From assembly GCF_022712195.1 (NCBI RefSeq), contig NZ_JALAGY010000037.1:24081-88080 (forward strand): a stretch of DNA of 64,000 bases, read 5' to 3'. This document shows positions 49,964-64,000 of this stretch, in pieces. A program made the translations under genes and the position numbers. Under the pieces are notes generated by a model that worked only from the letters and a program-made list of their open reading frames with translations, ran no database searches and had not been told where the DNA came from. The stretch's first letter is position 1. Every line of letters begins with the position of its first letter. Source of the DNA: Corynebacterium sp. Its GTDB lineage: Bacteria > Actinomycetota > Actinomycetes > Mycobacteriales > Mycobacteriaceae.

Positions 49964-51073
49964 CTACATCCAGTCACTGCGGCGGAAGAAGATGTACAGC
50001 AGCAGCGCGACGCCGAACATCATGCCCAGCGCCATCGGGTAGCCGAAGGCCCAGTGCAGTTCGGGCATGTCGTCGAAGTTCATCCCGTAGATCGCGCCGA
50101 CGAGCGTCGGGGCAAAGAGGATGGCCGCCCACCCGGAGATCTTCTTCATGTCCTCGTTCTGGCGCTGCGCGACGAGAGTGGCGTTGACGTTGAGGATCTG
50201 CGCCAGGGCGTCGCGCTGGTCGGCGGCGAGAGTCCCGGCACGGGTGAGGTGGTCGGCGACGTCGTCCAGGTAGGAGCGCAGATCCTCGGGGATGTCGTAC
50301 TTCACGAAGCCTGCGCGGAGCGCGTCGAGCACCTCGGTCATCGAGGCGATGGTCTGCTGGACGTCGATGACCTCCTGGCTCAGCCGGTAGATGCGTTCGG
50401 CGACCGCGGCGTCGCCGCTGAAGACCTGACGCTCGATCTGCTCCTTGTCGATGGCGATGCCCCGGAGCACCGGCGGGTAGCCGTCGACGATCGCGTCGAG
50501 GATCCTGTAGACCACGGCCTCCGGACCGAGCTTCAGGACGTCCGGGTCTGCGAGCAGGGTCCGGCGCCCGGGACCGGCACCGTCCGCTGCGGACACCCCG
50601 GCGCTGTCTGTGCCGTCGACCCACCGGCCGTCCTGGCACAACACGGCGACGCATCCGTGGCGGACGAGAATGTGGAACTCGGAGAACGCGACGTCCTCCG
50701 CCGCGTCGTTGTACCGGGCTGAGCGGGCGACGATGAACAGTACATCATCGTAGCGCTCCAGCTTGGGACGCTGCCGGGCGTTCACCAGGTCCTCCACGAG
50801 CAGCGGGTGCAGGTCCCAGGCCTCGGCCAGCTCGCCGATTCCCTCCCTGCCCGGGGTGGGGTACTGCAGCACCACCATGCGGTCGGGCCGGTCCGCCGCC
50901 GAGGCTGTCGCCTCAGCCACCGTGGTGCCCTCCGGCACGCGGCTGACGGCCCCGTCGTCGACGTAGGTCACCACCGGCGGTGCACCGGGAGGGGCGGGGG
51001 TCAGCCCCGCGGCGCGCTGCTTGCTGCGGGCGCGCCTGCTGATCCTGCCGTCGTTCGTCCTGTGGTTGCCCAT
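49964..51073 (-). CDS. corA: CorA-family Mg2+/Co2+ transporter
   Basis: A 369-residue pentameric channel subunit. A long cytoplasmic alpha/beta domain is followed by a helical stalk and two membrane helices (ISGWAAILFAPTLVGAIYGMNF and ...YPMALGMMFGVALLLYIFF). The selectivity signature YGMNFDDMPE is present. The N-terminal 40 residues are basic and disordered. It is followed by the GNAT gene on the same strand. Mg2+ import is the family function; this host also has the MgtE-N protein at 15.5 kb. Confidence 0.93.
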   Translation of the reverse strand: MGNHRTNDGRISRRARSKQRAAGLTPAPPGAPPVVTYVDDGAVSRVPEGTTVAEATASAADRPDRMVVLQYPTPGREGIGELAEAWDLHPLLVEDLVNARQRPKLERYDDVLFIVARSARYNDAAEDVAFSEFHILVRHGCVAVLCQDGRWVDGTDSAGVSAADGAGPGRRTLLADPDVLKLGPEAVVYRILDAIVDGYPPVLRGIAIDKEQIERQVFSGDAAVAERIYRLSQEVIDVQQTIASMTEVLDALRAGFVKYDIPEDLRSYLDDVADHLTRAGTLAADQRDALAQILNVNATLVAQRQNEDMKKISGWAAILFAPTLVGAIYGMNFDDMPELHWAFGYPMALGMMFGVALLLYIFFRRSDWM

Positions 51074-51159
51074 GTGTCTGCCCTCTCGACCCGTGGTTGT
51101 CCGGTGTCCGGGGGATACCCTATCCCCGGCACCCGTCGTGGGCGTAAGCCGCCGGTGGT

Positions 51160-51897
51160 TCAGGCGGTGAGCGCGGGACTCAACCCGGGACGCAGCTCAG
51201 GCCTCAGCGCAGCTCCGGACTGCCGGGTACGGCCCATGCTGGCCTGCACAATGATCGGCAGGTGGTCGGAGCGCCCCTGCGGCAGAACATCGACCCGCGA
51301 GCGGCCGAAACCACGCGACACGGCGAAGTCGTAGTTCCCCTTCAGCACGCCGTAGCGCGAGTACGTCGCCCCGTCGCTCCGTGCCATGTCGAAACCGTGG
51401 GAGTCGACGTGCCGGCGCAGCCCGCTCTGGAACAACGGGTAGTTGAAGTCGCCGACCATGACCGACGGCACACCCGCCCCGATCTCGCCGAGCGCGTCGA
51501 AGGACGTGCGGATCTGCTGGCGTCGCAGCGCGTTCGTGGCCGTCAGCGGGGCTGCGTGGAAGGAGGCGATGACCACGTCGTGGCCGTGCTTGCCGTCATG
51601 TGCACGCACTGTGACGAGTCGTTCGGAGGCCGGCTTCATGACCCGGTCGTGGAAGGACTTCTCCAGGGCGGTGACCTGGAGGTCCCTGACGTCGAACCGG
51701 TCGGCGCGCAGGTAGACCGCCAGGCCGAGACGGTTCTGCGTGGTGGCGTGGACGAGTTCCAGGGACCCGAGGCGGGCCGGCAACCGTCCGGTGTCGGCCT
51801 CCTGGACGCAGATGGCGTCCGGGACGTGCGCTCCCGCCAGGGGGAGGAGCTCAGTGACCGCGTTGTGCTTATGCAGGTTATAGCTAATCAGCTTCAT
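51160..51897 (-). CDS. Endonuclease/exonuclease/phosphatase family protein
   Basis: A 245-residue metal-dependent phosphoesterase fold. The N-terminus ISYNLHKHN, CVQEAD (metal Glu), VMVGDFNYPLF (catalytic Asp-Asn), and GRSDHLPIIVQ (Ser-Asp-His) are in the right order, so it is likely active. There is no signal peptide or membrane helix. Targets could be DNA, phospholipid or inositol phosphate; none can be preferred. Confidence 0.88.
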   Translation of the reverse strand: MKLISYNLHKHNAVTELLPLAGAHVPDAICVQEADTGRLPARLGSLELVHATTQNRLGLAVYLRADRFDVRDLQVTALEKSFHDRVMKPASERLVTVRAHDGKHGHDVVIASFHAAPLTATNALRRQQIRTSFDALGEIGAGVPSVMVGDFNYPLFQSGLRRHVDSHGFDMARSDGATYSRYGVLKGNYDFAVSRGFGRSRVDVLPQGRSDHLPIIVQASMGRTRQSGAALRPELRPGLSPALTA

Positions 51898-51991
51898 TGG
51901 TCATCGAGCCTAGTACATCCGACGGCCGGAATTATGAGCATTTCCGGTGAGATCAGCACACACTTCCACAGGAAAGCGGTGGGGCGCGCGG

Positions 51992-52360
51992 TCAGCGCAC
52001 CTCTCCGTCGAGGTAGAACCAGCGTCCGTCCTCACGGACGAACCGCGACCGCTCCTCCATCACCTCCGCCACACCGGTCCCCGAAGTTGACCCCGGACCT
52101 GCCCCCTGGTCCGCCGGAAGATAGGTCGCCCGGAACTCCACGACCCCGGTGGAGTCCTCCGGCCCGCCGGCGACGGTGTCGACGACCTGGAGACCGCGCC
52201 AGCGGGGGTTGTCGGAGAGGTCGAGCTCCTCGGGCCGGGTGGAGGGGTGCCACGTGCGCAGCAGCCAGGTGGCGTCCCCACGCCGGAAGGCGTCGAACCT
52301 GGAACGCATCAGCGCCTCGGCGGTCTCAGGCTCCCCGGCCTCCGGCGACCTGTCCCCCAT
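51992..52360 (-). CDS. YchJ-like protein without the SEC-C zinc motif
   Basis: A 122-residue NTF2-like protein. AEALMRSRFDAFRRGDATWLLRTWHPSTRP is the YchJ-family signature, and the C-terminus RFVREDGRWFYLDGEV matches it. YchJ normally begins with a CPCGS zinc motif and ends with a second one. Neither is present, and only 3 bases separate its start from the sulfatase stop, so none is hidden upstream. Function unknown. Confidence 0.8.
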   Translation of the reverse strand: MGDRSPEAGEPETAEALMRSRFDAFRRGDATWLLRTWHPSTRPEELDLSDNPRWRGLQVVDTVAGGPEDSTGVVEFRATYLPADQGAGPGSTSGTGVAEVMEERSRFVREDGRWFYLDGEVR

Positions 52361-52363
52361 CAG

Positions 52364-53917
52364 CTACAGCTCCTCGCCTTCCCATGCCTCGCTGTAGAAC
52401 TCCTGGGACCGCGATTCCAGCAGCTGCGCGTAAATGTCCGGCTCCAGGTTCTGCGCGGAACTCTCCGGGATGGTCGGCGAGAACGCCGAGACCCCCAGGC
52501 CCGCCTGCCGGTCCTTCAGCTCGATCCCGGCCGCCTCGAGGATCGTCGGCATCATGTTCAGCTGGTCGACACCGGACCGCATCGACGAGGTCGACTTCTC
52601 GTCGCCCGGGATCCAGAACCGGTTGAAGATCGTCCGGTTCGGGTGGTCGCCGAGCTCCTCGCCGAAGGCGTTGTTGGAGCCCATGTGCTTGAGGTGGTCA
52701 CCCATGACGACCACGGCCGTGTCCTCCAGGTAGCCCTGCTGCTCCATGTAGCCGACGAAGTCGGCGACCTGGGTCAGCGAGCAGGAGAACATGGAGGTGA
52801 CCTCGCTCTCGGTGTCCACGTCGCAGTAGTCGTAGATGTGGACCGGCTCATGGGTGTCGACGGTCAGCATGGACAGGTTGAACGGGGTGCCCGTCCTCGC
52901 GGACTCCTCATGCAGGGAATCCACCTTCTCCTTCGCGTTGGCCATCAGCCGCTTATCGCTGAGACCCCAGTCGCCGCGGAACTGGTCGTCCGGCTCCCCC
53001 TTGGCCCGCCAGTCGTCCAGGTCGTACTGCTCGTCGTAGCCGTGGGTGGTGAGGTACTGGTCCTTGGCGGCGAAGGACCCGTTGGCCCCGCCCATGAACA
53101 CGTTACGGTAGCCCTGCTCCTTGAGGACGTCGCCGACACAGGTCAGCCCGCCCAGGTAGCTCGCGACGTCTCCGCCGAGGGAGTTCAACCCGGACTTCCC
53201 GGTGACCAGGCCGTTCCCCTTCAACGGGACACCGCACTGGGTGCCGGAGATGCCGGCCATGGTCCAGCCGCCCCCCTCGTACTGCTGGAAGTTCCCCACG
53301 TTCTGCCAGCCGTCCTCCTGGCGGGTGACGTCCTTGAGCGGGACGAAGGGGTCCTTCTCGAACAGGGTGGTGTCCGACAGTGTCGCCTCGCCGGACTCGA
53401 GGTAGATCATCACCACGTTGCGGGAGTTCTCGGCTGAGGTCACCTGCGGCGGCTTGTAGTACTGGTCGATGGTGTAGTCGGAGTTGGCGGCCTTGATGTA
53501 CGCACCGACGTGGACCGAGGACCCGAACATGGCGGTACCGCTGACCACGACGCCCGCGACCAGCACCACGGACACGGTGCGTTTGACCCAGCCACGGCCC
53601 GCGGGGACATGGTCGTCCTTCTCGCCGCCGCGTCGACGCAGGAAACGGTAGTGCCCGTAGGCGATCGCCAGGGTCAGGACGACCGGCAGCACGCCGAAGG
53701 CGAGGATGCCGAGCCAGACGAGGTCACCACCGCCGCCGTCGGCCTGCATGGACACCAGGTTCATCATCATCTGGTCGACGGTGATGGCACCCCAGAACAT
53801 GTGGATGCCGATGCCGACGATGAACAGAGTGAGGGCCAGCCAGATCAGCAGGTAGACAGCCACGCGCCCCACGACTGAGCCAACCCGTTTGGCCTTGGAC
53901 TTAACAGCTCCAGACAA
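52364..53917 (-). CDS. LTA-synthase-like membrane sulfatase/phosphoglycerol transferase
   Basis: A 517-residue protein with three to four N-terminal helices (about 14-145) and an extracytoplasmic sulfatase-fold domain. VVMIYLESGEATLSDTTLF holds the Thr/Ser nucleophile region, GVVDQLNMMPTILEAAG the C-terminal part, and VVMGDHLKHMGSN the Asp-His metal ligands of the LtaS/MdoB family, which transfer glycerol phosphate. The TTG start 53917 follows GGTGAG by 8 bases. The YchJ-like gene follows after 3 bases. Its product in corynebacteria, which lack classical LTA, is uncertain. Confidence 0.85.
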   Translation of the reverse strand: MSGAVKSKAKRVGSVVGRVAVYLLIWLALTLFIVGIGIHMFWGAITVDQMMMNLVSMQADGGGGDLVWLGILAFGVLPVVLTLAIAYGHYRFLRRRGGEKDDHVPAGRGWVKRTVSVVLVAGVVVSGTAMFGSSVHVGAYIKAANSDYTIDQYYKPPQVTSAENSRNVVMIYLESGEATLSDTTLFEKDPFVPLKDVTRQEDGWQNVGNFQQYEGGGWTMAGISGTQCGVPLKGNGLVTGKSGLNSLGGDVASYLGGLTCVGDVLKEQGYRNVFMGGANGSFAAKDQYLTTHGYDEQYDLDDWRAKGEPDDQFRGDWGLSDKRLMANAKEKVDSLHEESARTGTPFNLSMLTVDTHEPVHIYDYCDVDTESEVTSMFSCSLTQVADFVGYMEQQGYLEDTAVVVMGDHLKHMGSNNAFGEELGDHPNRTIFNRFWIPGDEKSTSSMRSGVDQLNMMPTILEAAGIELKDRQAGLGVSAFSPTIPESSAQNLEPDIYAQLLESRSQEFYSEAWEGEEL

Positions 53918-54220
53918 TGGGACATCTCACCTTTCCGACGCAGAGCACATGTCGTGCGGGTCGCTCACACTGCGGCCACGCGTGGGGCCGGCAGAAGATT
54001 CATCCTTTGAACTTCAGGAATTCAACCATAGTTCACCCGGATTGCGCGAGAAAGTGACTTATGACATTGCCGAGGCCACGGCGGCTTCCCCCGGGCACTG
54101 CAGGCCACTACGCCGCACAGTCGCCCCTGCTACGGCGCATCGCACGGCCGACTCCGAGGTCACGGTCAGACGGTGGACGTGAACACCACTTCCCCTTGGA
54201 TTCCGCAGATCAGCGCCGGA
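53918..54220. other. 303-base intergenic region, no gene found
   Basis: It includes the 5' leader of the sulfatase gene and a moderately A/T-richer stretch (about 53975-54070). Plus-strand reading frames cross it but lack start signals and family features. Confidence 0.4.
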
Positions 54221-54796
54221 TCAGGCGCGGGCGTACTCTGCGAAGATCACGCCCGACTCGAAGGACTGAGTCCGGGTTCGCCTCCATGCCCTCGGTGAGT
54301 AGGCGGCAGAACCGAACACCGGGATCCCCTCTCCCAGCACGACGGGGTTGATCTTCAGCGCCAGTCGGTCGATGTCCTCGATGAGCGATGCGGCGAGTGT
54401 CCCACCACCACACAGCCAGATGCCCCGCCCGTCCTCCTGCTTGAGCTCACGCACCACCGCCGTCGGATCCTCCGCGGTGAACTCGACATCGTCGCTTCCC
54501 TCCGGCCGCTGCGACGGCGCGCTGGTGAAGACGATCTGACGCAGGTGCCGGTAAGGGTTCGTCAGGTGCGGCAGCCCGACCGCGTATGTGTTCCTACCCA
54601 TGAGAACCGTGTCGAACGGCCCGTCATCGACCGAAAGCCCGGCCGCCTCGGCCAGTTCCGTGGGAGCCGTGCCGCGGTAGCGGGACCAGATCGGCTCCAT
54701 GTGATCGCCGGTAGCGAGGAAGGCGTCGAACTCACCGCCGGGACCGGCGATGTATCCGTCCAGGCTGACTGCGACGTAGTAGGTCAGTTCCCGCAT
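54221..54796 (-). CDS. Dihydrofolate-reductase-fold protein (RibD C-terminal type)
   Basis: A 191-residue NADPH-binding reductase-like protein. The start RELTYYVAVSLDGYIAGPGGEFD is the RibD-C/YyaP signature. LMGRNTYAVGLP and IWLCGGGTLAASLIEDIDRLALKINPVVLGEGIPVF complete the fold. Of two adjacent ATG codons, 54796 lies at good distance from GAGGGG. It is the last host gene before the integration boundary; the role is not assigned. Confidence 0.88.
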   Translation of the reverse strand: MRELTYYVAVSLDGYIAGPGGEFDAFLATGDHMEPIWSRYRGTAPTELAEAAGLSVDDGPFDTVLMGRNTYAVGLPHLTNPYRHLRQIVFTSAPSQRPEGSDDVEFTAEDPTAVVRELKQEDGRGIWLCGGGTLAASLIEDIDRLALKINPVVLGEGIPVFGSAAYSPRAWRRTRTQSFESGVIFAEYARA

Positions 54797-54897
54797 CATG
54801 TTCCCCTCACCGCGACAGTGGTTTTCCTCAGAATACATCGCCAGCAGTGATGGCGCCGGGCCCGTCTCCCCTCCCCACGACGGACCCCTCCTACGCG

Positions 54898-54960
54898 CTA
54901 GACGTTGAACTTGAACTCCACCAGGCACACGTCGACCACCTCCTTGCCCCTGCTCTGGAC
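54898..54960 (-). other. Likely attachment-site remnant: 3' end of a displaced host gene
   Basis: On the minus strand an open frame ends KEVVDVCLVEFKFNV followed by TAG (54898-54900), with stop codon in the same frame about 75 bases upstream toward the integrase. It reads like a gene C-terminus with no gene in front of it. It lies between the last host gene and the integrase, where a left attachment site is expected. The gene was not identified. Confidence 0.4.
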
Positions 54961-54979
54961 GGGGTTTCGCACATTTCGC

Positions 54980-54985
54980 TAATCT
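54980..54985 (+). promoter_or_regulatory. Candidate -10 element TAATCT for the integrase
   Basis: TAATCT ends 7 bases before ATG 54993, with no ribosome site, so the integrase mRNA appears leaderless. Confidence 0.5.
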
Positions 54986-54992
54986 TCTGGTC

Positions 54993-56765
54993 ATGCCTCC
55001 ACGCAAGAAATCCACTCCGATCCTCGGCGGCCGGGCCCGACTCTACGCGCCGTCGACGCCCGGTGGCCGGTGGCAGGTGGTCTGGCGCGACCCCGTCACC
55101 GGCAAGCCGAAGAACCGGACCGGCGCTACCAAGGACATCGTCGTCCAGAAAGCCGCTGAGGCCCTCGGCGATTGGGGTGACGACCCCGCCAGCGTCGCGC
55201 CTCCCACCGTCGGCGAAGCCGTCGAGACGTGGATCACCGACAATCAGCATCGCTGGGTCAGTCGCACCACCACTGCGTACCGGTACCGCGCCAAGGCACT
55301 CAGCAGCCTCTGGGACCTGCCGGTCACCGCCGTGCGCCCCGAGGATCTCCGCAGGCTCGCTGACGGCCTCAGCCGTGACCAGGCCAAGCGGGTCCGGACC
55401 ATCGTCCGGGCCACGTTCGACTTGGTAGAGCGCTGGACCGGCCGTCCAGGCGACCGCTACTCCGAGGCCATCCGACTCCCCGGCAGCGCCTCAGAGGACG
55501 CGCCACGGGAGGTCGAGCGCACCCAAATCCCGACATCAGAGTGGGTCTCCGGCGTCATCGACACGTGCTACTCGACATGCCAGCTGCACCCCGCGCTCTC
55601 CCGCCCCGGTGAGCACGTCGACCCGGTGACCGGAGAGCACACCGGCAATGCTCTTACGGACGACCCCGGATCACTCTGGTTCGTCCGCGAAAAGCTCCAG
55701 CTCGGCGCACCGCTCTCCCTCATCAGCAGCATGCGACGCGGCATCCCGGACCACTACAAGAACCCGATCGGCCGGCGCACCGTGGAGACGGCGGAGCTCG
55801 CGTCCCGATTCCGCCAAATCGCCCTACTGACTGCCCTCGGCGCTGCGGGCGGCCTGCGTATCGGGGAAGCCCTGGCGCTGCGCACGCGGCACCTATTCGG
55901 CCTCCACCTGGACCAAAACACCGCACGCAACCTGGAGGAGGCCATGCACGGGGTGCTCCTGCGAGAGGTCAATGACGGATACACGCCCACACCTCTCGAA
56001 GGCATGAATCCCCTGCTGATGCGCGGATACCGCGGCGCTGTCGATGTCGTCGAACAGGTCTCCCCGGACGGCGGGCGCATGGCCGTCACTGCCCCGAAGA
56101 TGGGTAAAACACGACGGGTTTATCTTTCCCCCCTCCTCTACCCCGCGTGGGATCGAGATGCTCAACGCCCGCTGCGGGATCTCCTCGCAGATCCGCATAA
56201 TGGCATCCTCCACTCGGCTGAATTCGATGTCTTCGACGCTACAGCTCGCGACGGCAGCCTCTGGGACATGACCGAGGTCGACGCGCTTCTCCTTTGGAAG
56301 TCGGGATTCACCCCAATCGCCTACCTACTGCACGACCGCCTGCGCGAAATGTGGATCGAATCCGGCCGCGACGTGCGAGTTTTCTGGGACGCGCTGCTAT
56401 TCCCGACGCGCAACCCGGCCCGTAACCGCGGCCCCGGAGTTGCTTTCCCAGCCCGCTGGCCATACGCGACCCAGATCCCCCACGGCACATACCAGTCCCC
56501 AACCAACCTCACAGGTAGGTACGTTTCGCCGCTCTACGACTACGTTTCGGACGTCCTACACGTGTGGCCCGGGTACAAAGGCACCACCCGCCGCGGCTGG
56601 TCCCACCATCACCTGAGGCACTACGCGGTCTCCCAGTGGCTCTCCCGCGGCGTACCGGTACCTCTCGTTACCCAGCAGGCCGGCCACGCCAACGAGGCGT
56701 TCACCCTCAGCCGATACGGCTGGGCAGCCACAGATTCATTGCCCGACAAGGGTTTTGAACCGTAG
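54993..56765 (+). CDS. Tyrosine recombinase (integrase) of an integrative element
   Basis: A 590-residue site-specific recombinase. The N-terminal part has an arm-binding-like domain (RWQVVWRDPVTGKPKNRTGATK) and a SAM-like core-binding domain (about 70-140, VGEAVETWITDNQHRWVSRTT). The catalytic domain holds the Arg in GGLRIGEALALR, a Lys in APKMGKTRRVYLS, HHLRHYAVSQWLSRG (His, Arg) and QQAGHANEAFTLSRYGWA (His and nucleophile Tyr). All six catalytic positions seem intact. It is longer than most phage integrases, with an insertion after the first Arg. Placed at the element's left end, it should carry out excision and integration. Confidence 0.92.
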   Translation: MPPRKKSTPILGGRARLYAPSTPGGRWQVVWRDPVTGKPKNRTGATKDIVVQKAAEALGDWGDDPASVAPPTVGEAVETWITDNQHRWVSRTTTAYRYRAKALSSLWDLPVTAVRPEDLRRLADGLSRDQAKRVRTIVRATFDLVERWTGRPGDRYSEAIRLPGSASEDAPREVERTQIPTSEWVSGVIDTCYSTCQLHPALSRPGEHVDPVTGEHTGNALTDDPGSLWFVREKLQLGAPLSLISSMRRGIPDHYKNPIGRRTVETAELASRFRQIALLTALGAAGGLRIGEALALRTRHLFGLHLDQNTARNLEEAMHGVLLREVNDGYTPTPLEGMNPLLMRGYRGAVDVVEQVSPDGGRMAVTAPKMGKTRRVYLSPLLYPAWDRDAQRPLRDLLADPHNGILHSAEFDVFDATARDGSLWDMTEVDALLLWKSGFTPIAYLLHDRLREMWIESGRDVRVFWDALLFPTRNPARNRGPGVAFPARWPYATQIPHGTYQSPTNLTGRYVSPLYDYVSDVLHVWPGYKGTTRRGWSHHHLRHYAVSQWLSRGVPVPLVTQQAGHANEAFTLSRYGWAATDSLPDKGFEP

Positions 56766-56822
56766 CCACGAATAGGATTGAAGAAGAAGTTAAGAAACTC
56801 GGACTACGAGCGGAGAAAGACG

Positions 56823-57782
56823 ATGACGACCTGCGCAGCTGATGGCTGTGAAAGAACCGGGGCATTTAGGACACGCACTCGCCCGACTTGGTGTGACGAG
56901 CACCTGCGTGACCTTTACGAGGAAGTCGGGCTCACTCTTCTCGACAATTTTACCAAACCCGGAGAATACCTCCTCACACGCTGCAATCACTGTAGTTTCG
57001 AGGGCCACTACCGGTTCGAGTACGTGCTCGAGCGCCGCAAACACTCGGAACAGGCCTGTCGTGCCTGTTACTGGACCAAGTGGGCGAAGGGTGCCCGTAA
57101 GCACTCAGGGAATCGTCCAGTCGATCTCCACCACATTCAGCAGATGGCAGAGGCCAATGGTTTCACGTACCTTGGTCCACTGACGGAACCCAGCCTCGAC
57201 GAAGATCCGCATGGTACACGCTGCAACCGGTGCGGACGCGTCGAGGCCCAGCGGCCAGGGGACCTCGGTTGGGGCTGCACCTGCAGCCGGAACACAAAAA
57301 CGGCAACCGCCGGGACTAAGAAGACAGCCGGAGCGAACCTCCTAAAGAACTCCGACAGTCGGTACGCAGACTGGTGGGACCACGACCGCAACCCGCCAGA
57401 GTTGTGGGAAACCGCGAAGCTCAAAGGACGAAAAGAAGCCTGGTGGCGCTGCCCCGCAGATCACTCCTTCCAACGGCGAATCTCGGACGTAACTGGCAGC
57501 CATTCCTCACCATGTCCCACGTGCCGGGAGGACGCGGCGGAGGAATGGAAGGCGAAGCGGGCTGCCTACGAGGGGTTAACCATCGCCGACGTCCCAGAAC
57601 TGCTGGACGCCTGGGATGAAGACATCTCTCCTGAGACAGTCCAGGTCGATGCCTTTACGGGCGGGTCCGGTTACCGTTTCCGATGCCCCAGTGGGCATCG
57701 CAACACCCGCCAGCCGTTGAGCTGGCTTTTCGGGGGGTTGCTCAGCATGCAAGGCAGCGGAAACGCGAAAGCGGCGTGCTAA
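56823..57782 (+). CDS. First frame of the zinc-ribbon nuclease gene
   Basis: 319 codons as read, ending GLLSMQGSGNAKAAC after the G6 run. Without the extra G the frame would continue into the next segment. An upstream TTG (56778) is in frame but lacks a ribosome site. Confidence 0.7.
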   Translation: MTTCAADGCERTGAFRTRTRPTWCDEHLRDLYEEVGLTLLDNFTKPGEYLLTRCNHCSFEGHYRFEYVLERRKHSEQACRACYWTKWAKGARKHSGNRPVDLHHIQQMAEANGFTYLGPLTEPSLDEDPHGTRCNRCGRVEAQRPGDLGWGCTCSRNTKTATAGTKKTAGANLLKNSDSRYADWWDHDRNPPELWETAKLKGRKEAWWRCPADHSFQRRISDVTGSHSSPCPTCREDAAEEWKAKRAAYEGLTIADVPELLDAWDEDISPETVQVDAFTGGSGYRFRCPSGHRNTRQPLSWLFGGLLSMQGSGNAKAAC

Positions 57783-57801
57783 GGAAGCTGCGGAAGACCC
57801 T

Positions 57802-58581
57802 TTGTCCACGCGTCTGACACCAGAGATCGCCAGCCAGTGGCACCCAACCAAGAATGAAAAGCTTAAATTGTCGACCATCTCGCCCAATTCACGTCGAGTT
57901 GTGTGGTGGCGCGACCCTGTGTGCGGCCATGAGTTTCAAGCAACGCCCCGGGAGCGAGATAAGTACGAGCGACTACGGTGTCCCGAGTGCAGGACAATTC
58001 TCGACTCGCTGGCTTTCCACTACCCCGAAATCGCGGATGAGTGGTCCTCCGAGAACGCGCTTTCACCATGGCATGTTCGACCTAATACCAGCCAGCTGGT
58101 AGAGCCTCCCCTGTGGGTTTGCCGACGAAACCCCGCGCACACGTGGTCGGCGATGCCGGCAGTTCGCGTCAACGGCTCCCAGTGTCCCGAATGCCGGACA
58201 GCAGGCAAGTCGATGATTGAGCTGCAGTACGTCGAGGCCGCTCGTGCGTACTGGGGCGAAGCTCAGTCGGGGCCGCGGATTCACTCACCTGCGTTCACCA
58301 ACCACTCCTCGTGGTCGGTAGACATCCGTGTTTCGCTGGCCGACGGGAGATCCCTGGTGATCGAATACGACGGCGCATACTGGCACAAGGACAAAGGCCC
58401 CGTCGACCGCATCAAGAGCATTGACCTGCTCCGAGATGGTCACATTGTGGTCAGACTTCGAGAAGCACCTCTACACTCTCTTGAAATTGATGACCCTGAC
58501 TACCACGAGCTAACTGTGTACTCAGGTGCCCAAGACCCATCCCGCGATGTCCAAACGATCGCCCAGCTGACGCAAGGGTGA
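57802..58581 (+). CDS. Second frame of the zinc-ribbon nuclease gene (two zinc ribbons and nuclease domain)
   Basis: Reads from about 57738 without a stop. The only start codons are weak (TTG 57802), so it is probably not made alone. It carries two complete DUF4379 ribbons and the Vsr-like domain (58321-58420 region: DIRV, IEYDGAYWH). Confidence 0.7.
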   Translation: MSTRLTPEIASQWHPTKNEKLKLSTISPNSRRVVWWRDPVCGHEFQATPRERDKYERLRCPECRTILDSLAFHYPEIADEWSSENALSPWHVRPNTSQLVEPPLWVCRRNPAHTWSAMPAVRVNGSQCPECRTAGKSMIELQYVEAARAYWGEAQSGPRIHSPAFTNHSSWSVDIRVSLADGRSLVIEYDGAYWHKDKGPVDRIKSIDLLRDGHIVVRLREAPLHSLEIDDPDYHELTVYSGAQDPSRDVQTIAQLTQG

Positions 58582-58611
58582 CCTCCCGTTGCGAACGGAG
58601 GGTCATTTTCC

Positions 58612-58637
58612 GGGGCGTAGCAAGAGTGCTACGCCCC
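58612..58637 (+). terminator. Hairpin terminator after the nuclease gene
   Basis: GGGGCGTAGCA (58612-58622) pairs with 58627-58637 around the loop AGAG, 31 bases past the stop. Confidence 0.7.
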
Positions 58638-58755
58638 CTGTGTCGGCCTCAGACGCCTTCAGTCAGCGAGATGCAGCTGAACCGGGGCCACGCGACAAGT
58701 TGGTCGCGTGGCTGGCCGCGGCTCGTGGAGTGCGTCTGAGAGCGCCGGGGACGGG

Positions 58756-58761
58756 TACGGT
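58756..58761 (+). promoter_or_regulatory. Candidate -10 element TACGGT
   Basis: TACGGT ends 6 bases before ATG 58768, similar to the leaderless pattern elsewhere in the window. Confidence 0.3.
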
Positions 58762-58767
58762 CGGGGC

Positions 58768-58959
58768 ATGCCCGATACCCCGACCACGTCCACCGGCCGC
58801 GCCCTGATCGACGCCCTCGTCGAGATCAGCGGCCCCGAGGAGCTGACGGCCGCTCAGCTGGCCCGATTCGCTGCCGCCTACCACGCGCACCCGGGCGCCC
58901 CACGCCGGACCGCGTACCCGGCCCGCCGCCCACGGGGCGGGAGTGGCTTTCCTCGCTGA
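58768..58959 (+). CDS. Small hypothetical protein of the element (63 aa)
   Basis: Not recognised. A short helical core (GRALIDALVEISGPEELTAAQLARFAAAYHAH) is followed by a basic Pro/Arg tail ending RGGSGFPR. The helix-turn spacing could suit a small DNA- or partner-binding protein, but no motif is decisive. It sits between the nuclease gene and the next small gene. Confidence 0.4.
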   Translation: MPDTPTTSTGRALIDALVEISGPEELTAAQLARFAAAYHAHPGAPRRTAYPARRPRGGSGFPR

Positions 58960-58998
58960 CGCGAGCAGGCACGGTAGTGGGTAACCACTCTCCACCTG

Positions 58999-59349
58999 AT
59001 GAAAGCCTTTTCCATGGAGATTACTGCCATTACAGCCGACGGCCGACGCCACGCCATCACTGACCCAGACGAGCTCCCCGAGTGGGATCCTCGCGGCGGT
59101 CATCGCGGGACCATCTTCGTCGAGGAGCGCAGCACCGGAGGGCTCGTGGCAATCGTGAGCTCCATGGATACCATCCACGCCGTCAGCGCGCTGCTGGCCA
59201 GCCGCTTCCTCATCACAGAGCCTCTCGACCTGGGGGATGGCCCTGGAGATGCGACGGATGGGCGGATTCACATGACCGCCCTGACCCCCGGTAGCCGACC
59301 CACCGAAAGTGCCGTGCGGGCCCATCTGGCCGCGTACGGAGTCGCGTGA
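58999..59349 (+). CDS. Hypothetical protein of the element (116 aa)
   Basis: Not recognised. A 116-residue soluble protein with an alternating beta pattern (MEITAITADGRRHAITDPDELPEW, GTIFVEERSTGGLVAIVSSMDT) and a helical segment (AVSALLASRFLI). There is no ribosome site at ATG 58999; ATG 59014 is an alternative start. It ends just before the G-rich tract, on the opposite strand to the relaxase. Confidence 0.5.
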   Translation: MKAFSMEITAITADGRRHAITDPDELPEWDPRGGHRGTIFVEERSTGGLVAIVSSMDTIHAVSALLASRFLITEPLDLGDGPGDATDGRIHMTALTPGSRPTESAVRAHLAAYGVA

Positions 59350-59380
59350 CGACGAACAGCAGAAGGGGGCCCCCCCGGAC

Positions 59381-59480
59381 GGGGGGGGCGGGGTAGTTGG
59401 GGTCGCGGGCCCACCCAGCCCCAGGGGCGGGGGGGGCGGGGGGGGGGGGGGCCGGGGGGGGGTGGGGGGGGCGCGGCGAC
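59381..59480. repeat. G-rich low-complexity tract (longest run 14 G)
   Basis: In 59421-59480, 47 of 60 bases are G on the + strand. Runs of 14 (59438-59451), 9 and 8 G are separated by one or two bases. It lies beyond the 3' end of the relaxase gene. G-quadruplex formation, a C-rich transcript tail, or assembly error are all possible. Confidence 0.75.
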
Positions 59481-59514
59481 GGACACGGCGCCCGGGGGGC
59501 CGCCTAACCGCTTT

Positions 59515-59540
59515 GGGGCCCCCGCGTTCGGGGGGGCCCC
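59515..59540 (-). terminator. Hairpin after the relaxase gene
   Basis: GGGGCCCCC (59515-59523) pairs with GGGGGCCCC (59532-59540) around an 8-base loop, 11 bases beyond the relaxase stop. Confidence 0.55.
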
Positions 59541-59551
59541 CTTCTCTTGGG

Positions 59552-62500
59552 CTACGCGGCCACTCCGCGCCCCTGGCGCTGCTGGGCCTGCTGGCGGCGG
59601 ACCTGCTGCTCGCGCTGCTGCCGGATCATCCTCACGGCCTCGGCGGACGACGCCTGCGCGACGCGCAGCTCAGCGCGCTGCTGCTCGCGCTTGGCGGCCT
59701 CCGCTGCCTGCACGTACGAAGCCCGCTCGACGATCGTCTCCGGGGTCACCGCTCGACCGTGCGCCCGCAGCCACTTCTCAGCCTCGGCCTGCTGGGCCGG
59801 CGTGGGGTGCGTCCGCGCGACCTGCAGTGCAGAGGCGTCGGCTCCGGTTGTGAGCATCGAGCGCGCGAGGTCGGCTTCAGCCCTCTCCGGGCTCTCAGAG
59901 ATCCAGTGGAGGTCGGTCCCACTCTTGGCCCGCGTCATGGCTGGGTAGAGCCACTCGCGGTCGGCTGCGCCGTCCGCGACGACCCAAGCCCGCTCGACCG
60001 TGCGCCCCTGGGCCCCGTGGCCGGTCGACGCGCAGCCAAGTGCTGCGTGTCCGGACGCCAGGTGCGAGGGCCGGATGACCTCTGTCTTCATGGCACCGCC
60101 GACACCCGTCGGGAGCGACACCTTGACCGAGCCGTCCGGATTTACGGCACGCACCGTCCCCACCTGGCCATTGCGGATCTGGGTCCCCCGAATGTTTTTC
60201 GTGATGCGAATCGTCTCGCCGGCCCTGATTTGCTGCTCGAAGCCTCTCTTCTGGTCCCGGAGAGTTGCTGCAGGCGTCGTCGGGTCGATGACGCCGCGGC
60301 GGATCTGCTCCCGCTGGATCGCCTCAGCCAGCCGGTTGACCTGCGCGTTGGTACGCGCCAGCGCCAAGCGGGTTTGGTCGGGGTGCGCCAGCTCATGATC
60401 GACGTACGCCGCCGCGATCTCCTCGATGGCCGCCTCCGCGTACGGGTCTCGGGCGTCCGGCCGCGCCACCGCCGCCGCCTCCAGTGCCTCGGACGTGGGG
60501 AGGTGAAGCCGTCCACGGTCGCGCCAGTAGTCGATCATGGCGTCGGCTGCGGTGGCCTTCTCGGCGTCCGCTCCCTCGACCAGGGACTCCGCATCGTGCC
60601 ATGCGACCTGCAGCTCCCTCTCCTGCGCGTCCCGAGCGCGGTAGGTCTCGCTTATGTCCATCCGGCCGGCGGCATCCGCGACCAGACTGAATGCAGTCGA
60701 CCTTCCGATGCCCTGGAGCTGCCGGCTGTCACCGGTCATCACCACCGACCACCCCCGCTGACCCGCCAGCCTCAGCACTTTCTCCATCTGCTCGTTGTTC
60801 GTCATCGCCGCCTCATCGACCATCAGGACCACCTTGTCAGCCTCCTCCCACGACTTCGGGGTCCGCGCCTGAAGCTCCTCGGACCGCTTCGAGAGAGCCT
60901 CGAACGCCCTCTGTCGCTCGCCTGCGTCTGCCGGCGGGGACGTCTTGAACGCAGCCCAGTCACGCTGCAACCGCGCGGCCTCGCCCTGCCTCCTTCGGGG
61001 CTCGTCCGCGGCACGCTGCTCCCACGCAGCGAGCGCGGCCTCCGCCGCCTGCCGCTGCTCTGGCGTCTCAGCCTGGCGGACCGCCGTCCGCGCGGCCTCA
61101 CCCTCCAGGGCCATGGCGCTGCTCATGCCTGCCTGCCAGGCCCCCGCTTCCGCCCACATCTCAAGCCGCGCCAGCGAGGCGTGTCGGTTCACGCCCGCCT
61201 CGCCCAGCGCCGCCGCCGTGTCCGCCTTGGTCGACACCCCGACGACCTCATACCCCGCCTCCTGGTACGCCGCGACAAGCGGGCTGAGCATGTGCGTCTT
61301 GCCGGCGCCGGCCGGCGCTTCAGCCACCGTGAGCTTCGTCCCCCGCCCGGCGGCAGCGAGAAAAGCCTCCTGCTCCGGGGTCAGGGTGTACCGCTCGGCC
61401 CAGTCCGCGAGGCGCCGCGGGTCCAGGCGCGGGCCGCCAGCCGAGTGGGCCAGCGCGGCGGCCATCGCCTCGATGCGCTGCTCCTGGGCGACAGCGGTGC
61501 GGGTGGTGTACTCGGTCCCGATCCCCTTCGTCCATGCGCCAGCCTGGAGCTCCACACGGTCCGTGAGCTGGAGCAGCTCCTCGCTGGCCATAAGCGCGGC
61601 CTCCACCTCTGCGACGCGATCCATCCCCCATCCGGTGGGCCACACGTCGTGGAGAGCAGCCCTCAAGTCCTTCAGCTTGATGACCGAGGCGTCCCGCGTC
61701 GCGTGTGCGAGGGCGGCGGCGACGACGGAGTCCACCGTGGGTTGCTGGCGGGCAGCCTTCCCCTGCTGCTGTGCGTGGGCGAGAAGCTGGGTCACGTCGG
61801 GGCGGTCCGGGGCTGTGGCCCACTCGCGGAGCTGATCGACCTCCGGCAGCTCCGGCTTACCGTCGCGCGACTCCAGCACGGCACGCTGGTGGGCGTGGGA
61901 GGCCGTTTTCCCGCTGGCCCACTGCCGCAGGATCGACTGGTACGTCGCGTAGTCTGCGGCCATCTTGGCCTGATCGGCGTCGAGGTCGACGCCTGCCGAT
62001 CGCCTCGCCGCCATCTCCTCGTAGGCCGAGAGGTCCGCCTCCACGCGCGCCACCAGGAGCTTGTCGGCGCGCTGGAGCTCCTCCAGCTTCTCGGCGACCT
62101 GCGCGGATCGCTTCGAGTACTGATCGAGGACGCCGGCGTCCATGCCGACGACCTCGCGTACGCCCGACTCCTCGGACATGGCGACGGTGATGCCCAGGTG
62201 CTCCTGCAGTCGGGTCGCGAGCTCGGCCTCGTAGCGCGCGCGGAGGACCCGGCTGGCATGGAAGACCGACTGACCATCGAGGAGGGTGATGCGGCCGTCT
62301 GCCCCACGGGCCGCCGCTGAGACCAGCAGGTGCGAGTGGAGCTGAGGGTCGCCGGCGCGACTCGCGAGCTCTGTCTTCCGCATCGCCCCGAGTGGGGTCG
62401 CCGCGATTGACTCAGCGCGCGCATGCCCGCGAGCCACAGCGAAAACCCCGGCTTCCTCGGCGTAGCTCAGGCTGGCGTCCACGGCCTCCTCGTGGAGGCT

Positions 62501-63160
62501 GATGATCAGCTCACGCAGCTCCGCATCGCCGAAGCCCATCAAAACCGATACCCCCTTGGGGGCCGAGAAGGTCAGGTCATACGTCGTGACCGCGTCTCGC
62601 TTGCCCCGCGACGGCTGATCGGTGGGTGCCCAGTAGCGGTCGATCAGCTGGCGCACTTCACCGGTCAGCTCCTCGCCGGTCTCCGGGTGCCGGCCCGCGC
62701 GGACTGCATCGAGCGTGTCCCCGCCCATTAGCGCCCCCTCGGGCAGCCCGAGGAGACGCGCGATCTTGTCCAGACGCTGAGGGGGCGGGTCCACGAGGGT
62801 CCTCTCGCCATCGGGGGTCCGTCCCTGGAGGTGCGCAAGCAGCTCCTCGTCGGTGACCCGGCTGCCGTGAGCATGGGAGCCCCGGACCCATACGAGGCGG
62901 GGCTTGGAGGCGTCGGCCTTGTAGTACGCGCCGGCGCCCTTGGTGGCCGCGAGCCCGTCCTTCATGCGGCGCTCGTGCTGCGCGAGGAGCCGGGCCTCAG
63001 CGTCTGGGATGCCGCGCTCCGCGGCGATTTCATCGGCCCGCTCCGCGACTTCTCGCTCGGCGGCCTCTTCGAGGGTCAGCTCGCCGGAGCGAACTTTTTC
63101 TGCGTAGTAGTCGCTCATCGCGGCGGCCTGGCCGGCCTTGATGGTGCTGATCGAAAGCAA
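59552..63160 (-). CDS. MobF-family relaxase-helicase (TrwC/TraA-like)
   Basis: A 1202-residue conjugative relaxase read from TTG 63160, with AAGGAG (63171-63176) 10 bases upstream. This start gives LSISTIKAGQAAAMSDYYAEK, placing the Tyr pair at 18-19 as in TrwC-type enzymes. YDLTFSAPKGVSV follows, then the metal-binding HSH in GDPQLHSHLLVSAA. The C-terminal half is a RecD-like helicase: Walker A APAGAGKT, VVLMVDEAAMTN (Walker B), VMTGDSRQLQGIG, and STGHGAQGRTVERAWVV. It would nick and unwind DNA at oriT for transfer. No mating-pore genes are visible. Confidence 0.93.
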   Translation of the reverse strand: MLSISTIKAGQAAAMSDYYAEKVRSGELTLEEAAEREVAERADEIAAERGIPDAEARLLAQHERRMKDGLAATKGAGAYYKADASKPRLVWVRGSHAHGSRVTDEELLAHLQGRTPDGERTLVDPPPQRLDKIARLLGLPEGALMGGDTLDAVRAGRHPETGEELTGEVRQLIDRYWAPTDQPSRGKRDAVTTYDLTFSAPKGVSVLMGFGDAELRELIISLHEEAVDASLSYAEEAGVFAVARGHARAESIAATPLGAMRKTELASRAGDPQLHSHLLVSAAARGADGRITLLDGQSVFHASRVLRARYEAELATRLQEHLGITVAMSEESGVREVVGMDAGVLDQYSKRSAQVAEKLEELQRADKLLVARVEADLSAYEEMAARRSAGVDLDADQAKMAADYATYQSILRQWASGKTASHAHQRAVLESRDGKPELPEVDQLREWATAPDRPDVTQLLAHAQQQGKAARQQPTVDSVVAAALAHATRDASVIKLKDLRAALHDVWPTGWGMDRVAEVEAALMASEELLQLTDRVELQAGAWTKGIGTEYTTRTAVAQEQRIEAMAAALAHSAGGPRLDPRRLADWAERYTLTPEQEAFLAAAGRGTKLTVAEAPAGAGKTHMLSPLVAAYQEAGYEVVGVSTKADTAAALGEAGVNRHASLARLEMWAEAGAWQAGMSSAMALEGEAARTAVRQAETPEQRQAAEAALAAWEQRAADEPRRRQGEAARLQRDWAAFKTSPPADAGERQRAFEALSKRSEELQARTPKSWEEADKVVLMVDEAAMTNNEQMEKVLRLAGQRGWSVVMTGDSRQLQGIGRSTAFSLVADAAGRMDISETYRARDAQERELQVAWHDAESLVEGADAEKATAADAMIDYWRDRGRLHLPTSEALEAAAVARPDARDPYAEAAIEEIAAAYVDHELAHPDQTRLALARTNAQVNRLAEAIQREQIRRGVIDPTTPAATLRDQKRGFEQQIRAGETIRITKNIRGTQIRNGQVGTVRAVNPDGSVKVSLPTGVGGAMKTEVIRPSHLASGHAALGCASTGHGAQGRTVERAWVVADGAADREWLYPAMTRAKSGTDLHWISESPERAEADLARSMLTTGADASALQVARTHPTPAQQAEAEKWLRAHGRAVTPETIVERASYVQAAEAAKREQQRAELRVAQASSAEAVRMIRQQREQQVRRQQAQQRQGRGVAA

Positions 63161-63648
63161 AAGGGGGGTGCTCCTTAGGGTCGGTGGATGCGTGGTCACC
63201 GTGCCGGTTTTTTGTCCACGCACCACCTACCTGTCGGGGCGGCCGTGGCGACCCCAAGGCGAGGCGACGCCGGGCCTGCACCCCCAGGTGCAAGTGCCTG
63301 TAATGAATTAGTGGTGTGTGTATGTAAGGGGTTTTGGTAGAGGGTTTTGAGGAGTAGAGGATGAGAAAAGGATGGAAGTAGAAGTAAGAGGAAGAGGGGT
63401 GTGAAGGGATAAAGGAGGAAGGGTTAGTAGTGCTCGTGTAGGTGCTTGAGGTGCTGAGAGGTTTGTGCTGCTGTCGGAGTTGAGCACGTGACTGTGGCTC
63501 GCCGTGGATGAGGGTCGACTACCGAGGCATGACCTCGTGCGCGTCCATCCGGCTGGCAACCCCGCGCCCGGCACGGTGTGTGTGCCGAGCCAGCGCGCCG
63601 ACGGTCATCGGTGTCCGAGACCCGCCACCCCACTGAGATGGAGCCGTG
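63161..63648. other. 488-base noncoding divergent region, with a 134-base cytosine-free tract
   Basis: It holds the relaxase ribosome site, the candidate oriT repeat, and a stretch (63299-63432) with not one C on the + strand, very purine-rich at 63361-63420 (53 purines of 60). The tract is also far lower in GC than its surroundings. Reading frames across it are low-complexity and look spurious. Confidence 0.7.
63183..63227. promoter_or_regulatory. Candidate oriT inverted repeat upstream of the relaxase
   Basis: GGTGG-A-TGCGTGG (63183-63195) pairs with CCACGCACCACC (63216-63227) with one bulged A, closing a 20-base loop that includes a T6 run. A second small hairpin, TGCACC/GGTGCA, is at 63277-63292. 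Placement beside a MobF gene suggests oriT. Confidence 0.4.
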
Positions 63649-63957
63649 ATGATCCCCAGCACCCCCGCGCCGCGATGGAGCGCCCGCGTCGACCGCAGCG
63701 ACTGGGAGACGCTCACCGCGTCAGCCGCCGCCCGCGGAGTCCGCGTCGAGACCCTGATCGCTGACACGGTCGGCGAACTGACCCCCGCCGACCTGTCTAC
63801 CTCTGCCCCGCGGGAGGTGGTGTTCGTGCGCGCGGCACTGCCTGAGCACGCACGCGTGGAGATCCGAGAGCGGGCCTACCTCGCGCGTGTGCGTGTCGCC
63901 GACGTCATCCACGCCCTGGCCGAGCGAGTGCGGTCGGCGGGGTGCGTACCCGCCTGA
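63649..63957 (+). CDS. Small protein, possible tandem ribbon-helix-helix relaxosome factor
   Basis: A 102-residue protein divergent from the relaxase. Two halves each look like a ribbon-helix-helix unit: SARVDRSDWETLTASAAARGVRVETLIADTV (about residues 12-42) and EVVFVRAALPEHARVEIRERAYLARVRVADVIHALAERV (about 55-95). TraY, the relaxosome protein of F-type systems, also has a tandem arrangement. This is inferred from pattern only. GGAG lies 7 bases before ATG 63649; GTG 63646 adds one residue. Confidence 0.55.
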   Translation: MIPSTPAPRWSARVDRSDWETLTASAAARGVRVETLIADTVGELTPADLSTSAPREVVFVRAALPEHARVEIRERAYLARVRVADVIHALAERVRSAGCVPA

Positions 63958-64000
63958 CCTGCCCGCCCCTGATGCCCGCGAGTAGCGGACGCCCAACCCC

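Follow-up and report, generated by a model that had tools for sequence, protein, structure and literature searches.

The window analysed here is a stretch of 64,000 nt from a Corynebacterium sp. genome (RefSeq assembly GCF_022712195.1, contig NZ_JALAGY010000037.1), in which positions 56823-58581 are occupied by a single gene spread over two reading frames, P0001 (56823-57782) and P0002 (57733-58581). From N- to C-terminus the encoded protein consists of three cysteine clusters, four DUF4379-type repeats and a nuclease domain (Table 1). An earlier note, made from the letters of this DNA, had described cysteine clusters in about seven units, four zinc repeats, and the sequences VDIRV, VIEYDGAYWHK and DRIKSIDLL; all of these motifs are present in the protein, and the coordinates given in the note are correct.

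The two frames meet at a single break near position 57730, at a short one-base run, and the frame correction that the note had thought necessary is indeed needed. Intact copies exist, since relatives carry the protein in one frame (e.g. 586 residues in C. pelargi); an Arthrobacter plasmid protein (L023) and a C. glaucum protein (L031) are further intact relatives. The C-terminal half of the window gene is 97% identical to the C. silvaticum copy, and the ratio of nonsynonymous to synonymous substitution rates (dN/dS) between the N-terminal parts is 0.19, from which it follows that either constraint on the window gene lasted until recently or the shift is an error of sequencing; unless it is such an error, the frameshifted copy may be inactive. 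Relatives of the gene are under purifying selection (dN/dS 0.12-0.42 in eight pairs). A stretch at 59349-59520, between two convergent genes, contains long G and C runs unlike its surroundings and resembles an assembly or sequencing artefact, so that base errors are possible nearby. The lower G+C content pointed out in the note was also found, both for the gene (59.7%, versus 68.5% for the whole window) and for positions 56941-57000 (28 of 60 bases, counted by hand). As for the terminator that the note had assigned to the gene, an inverted repeat can be seen by eye directly behind it, but a terminator scan did not list this hairpin and the minimum-energy fold of 58576-58625 pairs otherwise. 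For the whole protein, no model was found in Pfam, NCBIfam, PADLOC or PHROGs; NCBIfam gave no family for P0001 or for the relative at locus L005, and P0002 has only weak zinc-finger matches there.

The gene starts 57 nt behind a tyrosine integrase gene of the same orientation (in C. silvaticum the distance to the matching ATG is 89 nt), and its location between an integrase and a relaxase, as given in the note, was upheld by the profile matches of both flanking genes (Table 1). The integrase is 91% identical to its C. silvaticum counterpart, and the DNA common to the two genomes starts at about 54898, just before the integrase gene. In C. silvaticum the element extends over about 161286-174228 of its contig (12.9 kb) and holds the integrase, the nuclease, a MobF relaxase and smaller genes; in the window genome its right end is on another contig (C60). 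The window, G000:C60 and the C. silvaticum element at its right end agree in 24 of 24 nt of the attachment core; the left end of that element has diverged. Integrase, relaxase and attachment repeats bracket the nuclease gene, with the two ends on different contigs in the window genome. Judged by these features, the carrier is an integrative mobilizable element at the 3' end of ychF, with predicted mobilization, and the nuclease gene is its cargo.

Table 1. Features of the window gene, of its carrier and of related proteins (positions are those of the window unless a locus is named)
Feature	Position	Strand	Basis or remark
Attachment core of 24 nt, left end of element	54900-54923	.	recurs at ychF 3' end, G000:C60:850-873
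Tyrosine integrase, 590 aa	54993-56765	+	PHROG integrase 3e-20; Pfam Phage_integrase 25.3 bits, cut-off 27.1
Zinc unit 1 (C4, C9, C24, perhaps H27)	56823-56909	+	C24 invariant, C4 and C9 nearly so, 39 rows
Zinc unit 2 (C54-x2-C57 ... C79-x2-C82)	56982-57068	+	four Cys invariant, 39 rows
Zinc unit 3 (CNRC ... CTC)	57222-57284	+	three Cys columns invariant, one nearly, 39 rows
DUF4379 repeat 1	57366-57530	+	Pfam PF14311 33.5 bits, cut-off 24.5
DUF4379-like repeat 2	57573-57749 (about)	+	frameshift near 57730 inside; no Pfam match here
DUF4379 repeat 3	57826-57993	+	PF14311 59.2 bits
DUF4379 repeat 4	58030-58197	+	PF14311 41.3 bits
EDxHD/Vsr-like nuclease domain (SMIE ... VDI ... VIEYDGAYWH ... 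D..K ... RLRE)	58210-58578	+	41-row alignment
Possible terminator hairpin	58580-58604	+	near-perfect inverted repeat then ATTTT, by eye
116-aa open reading frame (ORF) between nuclease and relaxase	58999-59349		no Pfam match at E<=1, no NCBIfam match at E<=0.1
MobF/TrwC relaxase-helicase	59552-63226	-	PF08751 1e-44; NCBIfam MobF 146.3 bits, cut-off 100
Rhodococcus plasmid fusions: DEDDh exonuclease, BRCT-like, proline-rich linker, three-zinc module	L222:4876-6483; L223:4894-6489		
1246-aa protein: three-zinc module at start, PIF1-type helicase, BRCT-like regions	L191:7134-10874 (G008)		
323-aa proteins: three-zinc module and two repeats, no nuclease	L193:8608-9579; L012		

Nuclease domain and zinc units

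In an alignment of 41 rows the C-terminal domain has 22 invariant columns. Conserved in every row are E4, D38, E52-Y-D-G, Y-W-H59, K62, D66, K69, R82 and R84-E85 (window-row numbering), so that all 41 rows share the family signature E, D, EYDGxYWH, K, D, K, RxRE. We read E4, D38, E52/D54, H59 and D66 as the putative catalytic positions of the E-D-x-H-D type. The best solved relative of the nuclease profile is PDB entry 3r3p (E 3.4e-5, profile positions 48-106), which was deposited as 'Mobile intron protein' and has an alanine where the family has the invariant H59. We take this entry to be the catalytic domain of I-Bth0305I, an EDxHD homing endonuclease, which would then share an IE-x-x-G-x-YW core with the window nuclease. 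The resemblance of the latter to the Vsr mismatch endonuclease (V.EcoKDcm type) is presumably one of general motifs. I-Bth0305I differs from the window protein in its DNA-binding part and in its phage homing setting; the EDxHD homing endonuclease family is described in PMC3943268.

The nearest Pfam families at E<=1 are MTES_1575 (38 of the 41 rows, best 9.1e-8) and DUF559 (32 of the 41 rows, best 1.1e-5), although the window row, with 12.3 bits, stays under the Pfam cut-off of 38.2. MTES_1575 has been described as a Vsr-type restriction endonuclease (REase) of a multidomain conflict protein (PMC3710099). Unlike the window protein, REase_MTES_1575 (PF18741) and DUF559 (PF04480) are single domains in other architectures. 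A true Vsr repair or mismatch enzyme was considered and rejected: Vsr is absent from the 14 Pfam families matched by the 41 rows at E<=1. Because of the invariant signature and the relation to 3r3p, the window nuclease is, by its sequence, EDxHD/Vsr-like and not a true Vsr. The Vsr-like nuclease domain claimed in the note thus stood at the level of sequence, where the profile search gave it a solved relative. The gene product is probably a metal-dependent DNA endonuclease of the EDxHD/Vsr-like group, its nuclease activity being a prediction.

Three of the four window repeats pass the PF14311 cut-off (24.5) in a whole-genome search, with 33.5-59.2 bits, in agreement with the DUF4379 identity proposed in the note, and a repeat model built for this analysis found exactly four repeats in all 25 relatives chosen. 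The number of fingers changes naturally, as the C. silvaticum copy has lost most of repeat 2 in a deletion of about 213 bp, which keeps the frame and is flanked by short stretches that match. Other phyla and viral contigs contain head-to-tail DUF4379 arrays with a period of about 70 residues and up to 14 units; at loci L086, L087, L090, L097, L104, L105 and L110 the nuclease motif lies in the gap between two arrays. The best solved matches of the whole-protein profile are DUF4379 proteins which we take to belong to kinetoplastid mitochondrial ribosomes and related particles. In Goekera (G087, contigs C52 and C53; L062:1-1271 with L013), a second DUF4379 repeat protein adjoins the family member; its repeats are closely similar to each other and its array is cut by the contig end.

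Variability within the repeats was analysed in 48 arrays, with 217 repeats kept of the 600 aligned (repeats with more than eight gaps, arrays of fewer than three repeats and redundant arrays were dropped). When repeats of the same protein are compared, columns 55, 57, 58, 61 and 63 are the most variable, differing in 85-90% of pairs, followed by columns 30, 33 and 37 with 80-82%; W19, N24, W41, W42, C44, R59, C65 and C68 are near-constant. The five variable columns sit just before the second zinc knuckle, and four of the five chosen in one half of the arrays were the same in the other half. In 32 pairs of orthologous repeats in the family of the window gene, these columns differ in 17% and the scaffold in 12%. 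Variability between repeats, combined with conservation in orthologues, is what reading positions would look like, although the repeats within the window's own family are too diverged for a clear contrast (91% against 73%). Positive selection at the hypervariable columns was rejected, as dN/dS is 0.79-0.90 and not above 1, a value obtained with silent sites near saturation and with columns picked from the same data.

The N-terminal module comprises zinc units 1 to 3, the cysteines of the last being C134/C137-C152/C154 in P0001. It was found in 11 of the 242 genomes that represent the genus, in 9 of 397 for the order and in 5 of 394 for the class (overlapping samples, the window genome being included each time), and at two loci in a viral scan. 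The module is not tied to the EDxHD nuclease. In four cases (L201 and L218 in two genomes, and L222 and L223 on two Rhodococcus plasmids), it forms the C-terminus of a DEDDh exonuclease-BRCT protein, behind a proline-rich linker. The surroundings of the Rhodococcus fusions include an Mrr-like endonuclease and an OLD-like protein (L222) and ABC-three-component genes (L223). The assignment of BRCT in the fusions follows from alignment to L042 and L062, the only loci where Pfam BRCT scores above its cut-off; in the helicase fusion of L191 a twin-BRCT match lies just below it. A stretch in the middle of L191 looks exonuclease-like by eye, though Pfam gives it no name. Two genomes of the genus have the module followed by repeats 1 and 2 without other repeats or nuclease, beside type III restriction-modification (R-M) genes (L011, L012, L193). 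By eye, related zinc clusters are also seen before a GIY-YIG-like nuclease at L203:538-1725 and L221:1501-2536, for which Pfam gave no GIY-YIG match at E<=0.01.

The general architecture of the window protein has already been described: phage group II introns encode proteins in which an EDxHD/Vsr-like nuclease is preceded by three to five domains of about 60 residues, distant relatives of CapR, DUF4379 and DUF723 (Nucleic Acids Res 2025, gkaf761, PMC12350094). Its authors, who also use the name EDxHD/Vsr, regard such proteins as a large unrecognised outgroup of EDxHD/Vsr homing endonucleases. The window protein is like them in joining zinc repeats to an EDxHD/Vsr-like nuclease. Unlike the intron proteins as presented there, its gene is not in an intron, a three-unit N-terminal module accompanies the four repeats, the family rides on integrative elements, plasmids and prophages of actinobacteria, and the module has links to DEDDh-BRCT and PIF1 proteins. 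In the part of the literature searched, no description was found of the N-terminal module, of its fusions to exonuclease and helicase, or of carriage on integrative elements of actinobacteria.

Carriage and gene neighbours of the relatives

Gene context was compared at 57 loci, mostly the closest of the best 80 of 270 relatives, with three plasmid loci and the window added; near-duplicates, such as L022 and L045, are included. A conserved operon was rejected, as clustering of five genes on each side gave no neighbour cluster in more than 6 of the 57 loci, and the cluster reaching that number is a recombinase. A confinement of the homologues to conserved housekeeping contexts, which would have counted against the earlier note, was thus not found. 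Relatives are carried on plasmids and prophages in many actinobacteria, and a recombinase is found within 5 kb of the gene at 14 of the 57 loci at least, the search having used six seeds. L027 and L106 are prophage-like, as tandem large serine recombinases precede lysin- and holin-like genes there and, in L027, tail-like genes (all named by eye); remnants of serine recombinases lie beside the gene in L026 and L030. C. pelargi and an Actinomyces metagenome-assembled genome have only a block of 2.07 kb around the gene in common (91% DNA identity), the Actinomyces contig starting 125 bp before this block. In the tree the two also group together as sisters (100/96), separate from C. glaucum and C. 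meitnerae, which shows that the gene has moved between families.

Defence-type neighbours were identified at 9 of the 57 loci. In C. glaucum, C. meitnerae and C. haemomassiliense, type III R-M genes are divergent from the nuclease gene (only those of C. glaucum were scanned singly). An AbiD neighbour occurs in L026, with close relatives in L028 and L029, and L026 also has an ISP-type R-M fragment. Other neighbours are GmrSD (L036), NsnB and NsnC (L037), which we assume to be Menshen genes, and a CBASS-type cyclase (L068); proteins taken by eye for defence genes in L039 and L040 gave no PADLOC match. A gene for a DEDDh exonuclease is a neighbour at 3 of the 57 loci, ending 7 nt (L043) or 14 nt (L042) upstream of the nuclease gene, or lying divergent from it (L062).

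Proposed role and its alternatives

We propose, as a reading with a little less than an even chance of being correct, that the window protein is a zinc-array-guided DNA endonuclease, carried as element cargo and cutting competing DNA of phages or rival elements. An array of seven zinc units (the three-unit module and four DUF4379 repeats) would find and hold the target DNA, the EDxHD domain would cut it, and the resulting ends would be degraded, in some hosts, by the partner DEDDh exonuclease-BRCT protein. DNA as the ligand, competing DNA as the target and the division of labour with the exonuclease are all inferred from the sequences. A weapon against other DNA is suggested by the carriage of the genes beside integrases and, in some relatives, beside defence genes. 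The earlier note had inferred a defence or element-competition nuclease from the layout, and a zinc reader joined to a nuclease on mobile elements, in some cases near defence genes, was indeed found. However, the nearest relative among characterised nucleases is a homing endonuclease, and the proteins of PMC12350094 are likewise read as homing endonucleases, which makes selfish mobility, not considered in the note, a serious rival.

Besides this kinship, several observations weigh against a role in cutting competing DNA. The identified defence genes are limited to the nine loci mentioned above, among neighbours that were not all scanned singly. In PADLOC, 391 families were matched by 144 neighbour proteins and 84 by 121 control proteins. 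This comparison speaks for the proposal, but its control is crude, as it came from other genomes (20 fixed-position stretches, genomes of the same class), was the smaller set and was counted in models rather than genes. The 144 neighbours are the first 150 of 176 qualifying proteins minus six (two of L032 and four of L053), from a set excluding L027, L029, L033, L106 and the window. P0001 and P0002 themselves matched no PADLOC family at E<=0.1, and the one match of the relative L005, to a 'homing endonuclease' model, was weak (E 0.0036). Nor are broken copies rare: besides the window gene, those of L029, L030 and L033 are split or stopped, and L069, L078, L080 and L081 have no single ORF of 440 residues holding the nuclease motif, some of them perhaps being cut by contig ends or masked. 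Finally, the zinc array might bind RNA, since the solved DUF4379 proteins are parts of mitochondrial ribosomes.

The main rival, on account of the relatives of the nuclease and of carriage by phages, is a free-standing, selfish homing endonuclease, which would cleave a locus wherever the gene is missing from it and so have the gene inserted by repair. It would act like I-Bth0305I, except that zinc repeats replace the customary DNA-binding modules. We consider this unlikely on balance, although the E-D-x-H-D signature and the relation to 3r3p argue for it, as do the free-standing phage relatives: Lietuvens ORF50, with two DUF4379 repeats and a weak match to a DUF2726-type nuclease, lies between helicase and primase genes, and L204 near a terminase-like gene (by eye). 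It would also accord with PMC12350094, where CapR/DUF4379/DUF723-like arrays with EDxHD/Vsr-like domains in phage group II introns are read in this way. On the other hand, positions 50000-64000 of the window have no Rfam match at gathering score and hence no intron match (inteins were not searched for), and the gene, which has a start of its own behind the integrase ORF, is not intron-encoded, though free-standing homing genes exist and the function would not be excluded by this. No shared target locus is seen, since the available flanks of close relatives are unrelated (L026, L027 and L106; L023 and L064), and neither the unrelated tyrosine and serine recombinases nor the links to exonuclease and helicase would be expected of a homing gene.

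The tight linkage to the integrase, 57 nt upstream on the same strand, allows the different possibility that the protein helps its element as a nuclease specific for a structure or site, be it during integration or excision, in the processing by the relaxase or in mobile DNA repair. That it is one of few genes in a 12.9-kb element, and that fusions with helicase, exonuclease and BRCT suggest repair-like processing of DNA, would fit such a helper, but the family is carried by elements with unrelated recombinases, 43 of the 57 loci showed no recombinase within 5 kb with the six seeds, and presence is sporadic (N-terminal module in 11 of 242 genus genomes), so that we hold this to be rather improbable. 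Least probable is an RNA-targeting nuclease or RNA-anchored factor whose zinc repeats would recognise structured RNA, as suggested by the mitochondrial ribosome matches of the whole-protein profile: a DNA homing endonuclease is the closest relative of the nuclease domain, and the PIF1 helicase and BRCT companions point to DNA, even if DEDDh exonucleases can act on RNA too.

An extended form of the proposal, which we regard as doubtful, is that DUF4379 array, EDxHD nuclease and the partners of the three-zinc module make up an undescribed multi-enzyme system in which the repeats are a modular reading code like that of transcription activator-like effectors (TALEs). Arrays would then aim the EDxHD nuclease at chosen sequences of rival DNA, and the portable three-zinc module would recruit, or share targets with, the DEDDh exonuclease-BRCT protein and the PIF1-type helicase. 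A nuclease on a repeat array whose reading positions seem separable from the scaffold would be a cutter directed by sequence, of natural origin and perhaps programmable. A mobile system for degrading DNA is suggested by the repeated association of the zinc module with an exonuclease-BRCT protein and a helicase, and the intact plasmid-borne relatives make the question of defence versus homing directly testable.

Possible insertion sites of related elements

In L026:9780-9950, L027:1-130 and L030:4579-4788, the DNA just upstream of the gene is a methyltransferase gene ending at about motif I (by eye). The broken methyltransferases are one of the ISP type, one PglX/IIG-like (by eye) and one HsdM-like, and elements like that of L027 may insert into methyltransferase genes at motif I. 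A PF02384 search for the missing halves at these three loci gave only a short piece of L030 (positions 3-43 of 311); the same search found one unrelated full gene in the C. pelargi genome.

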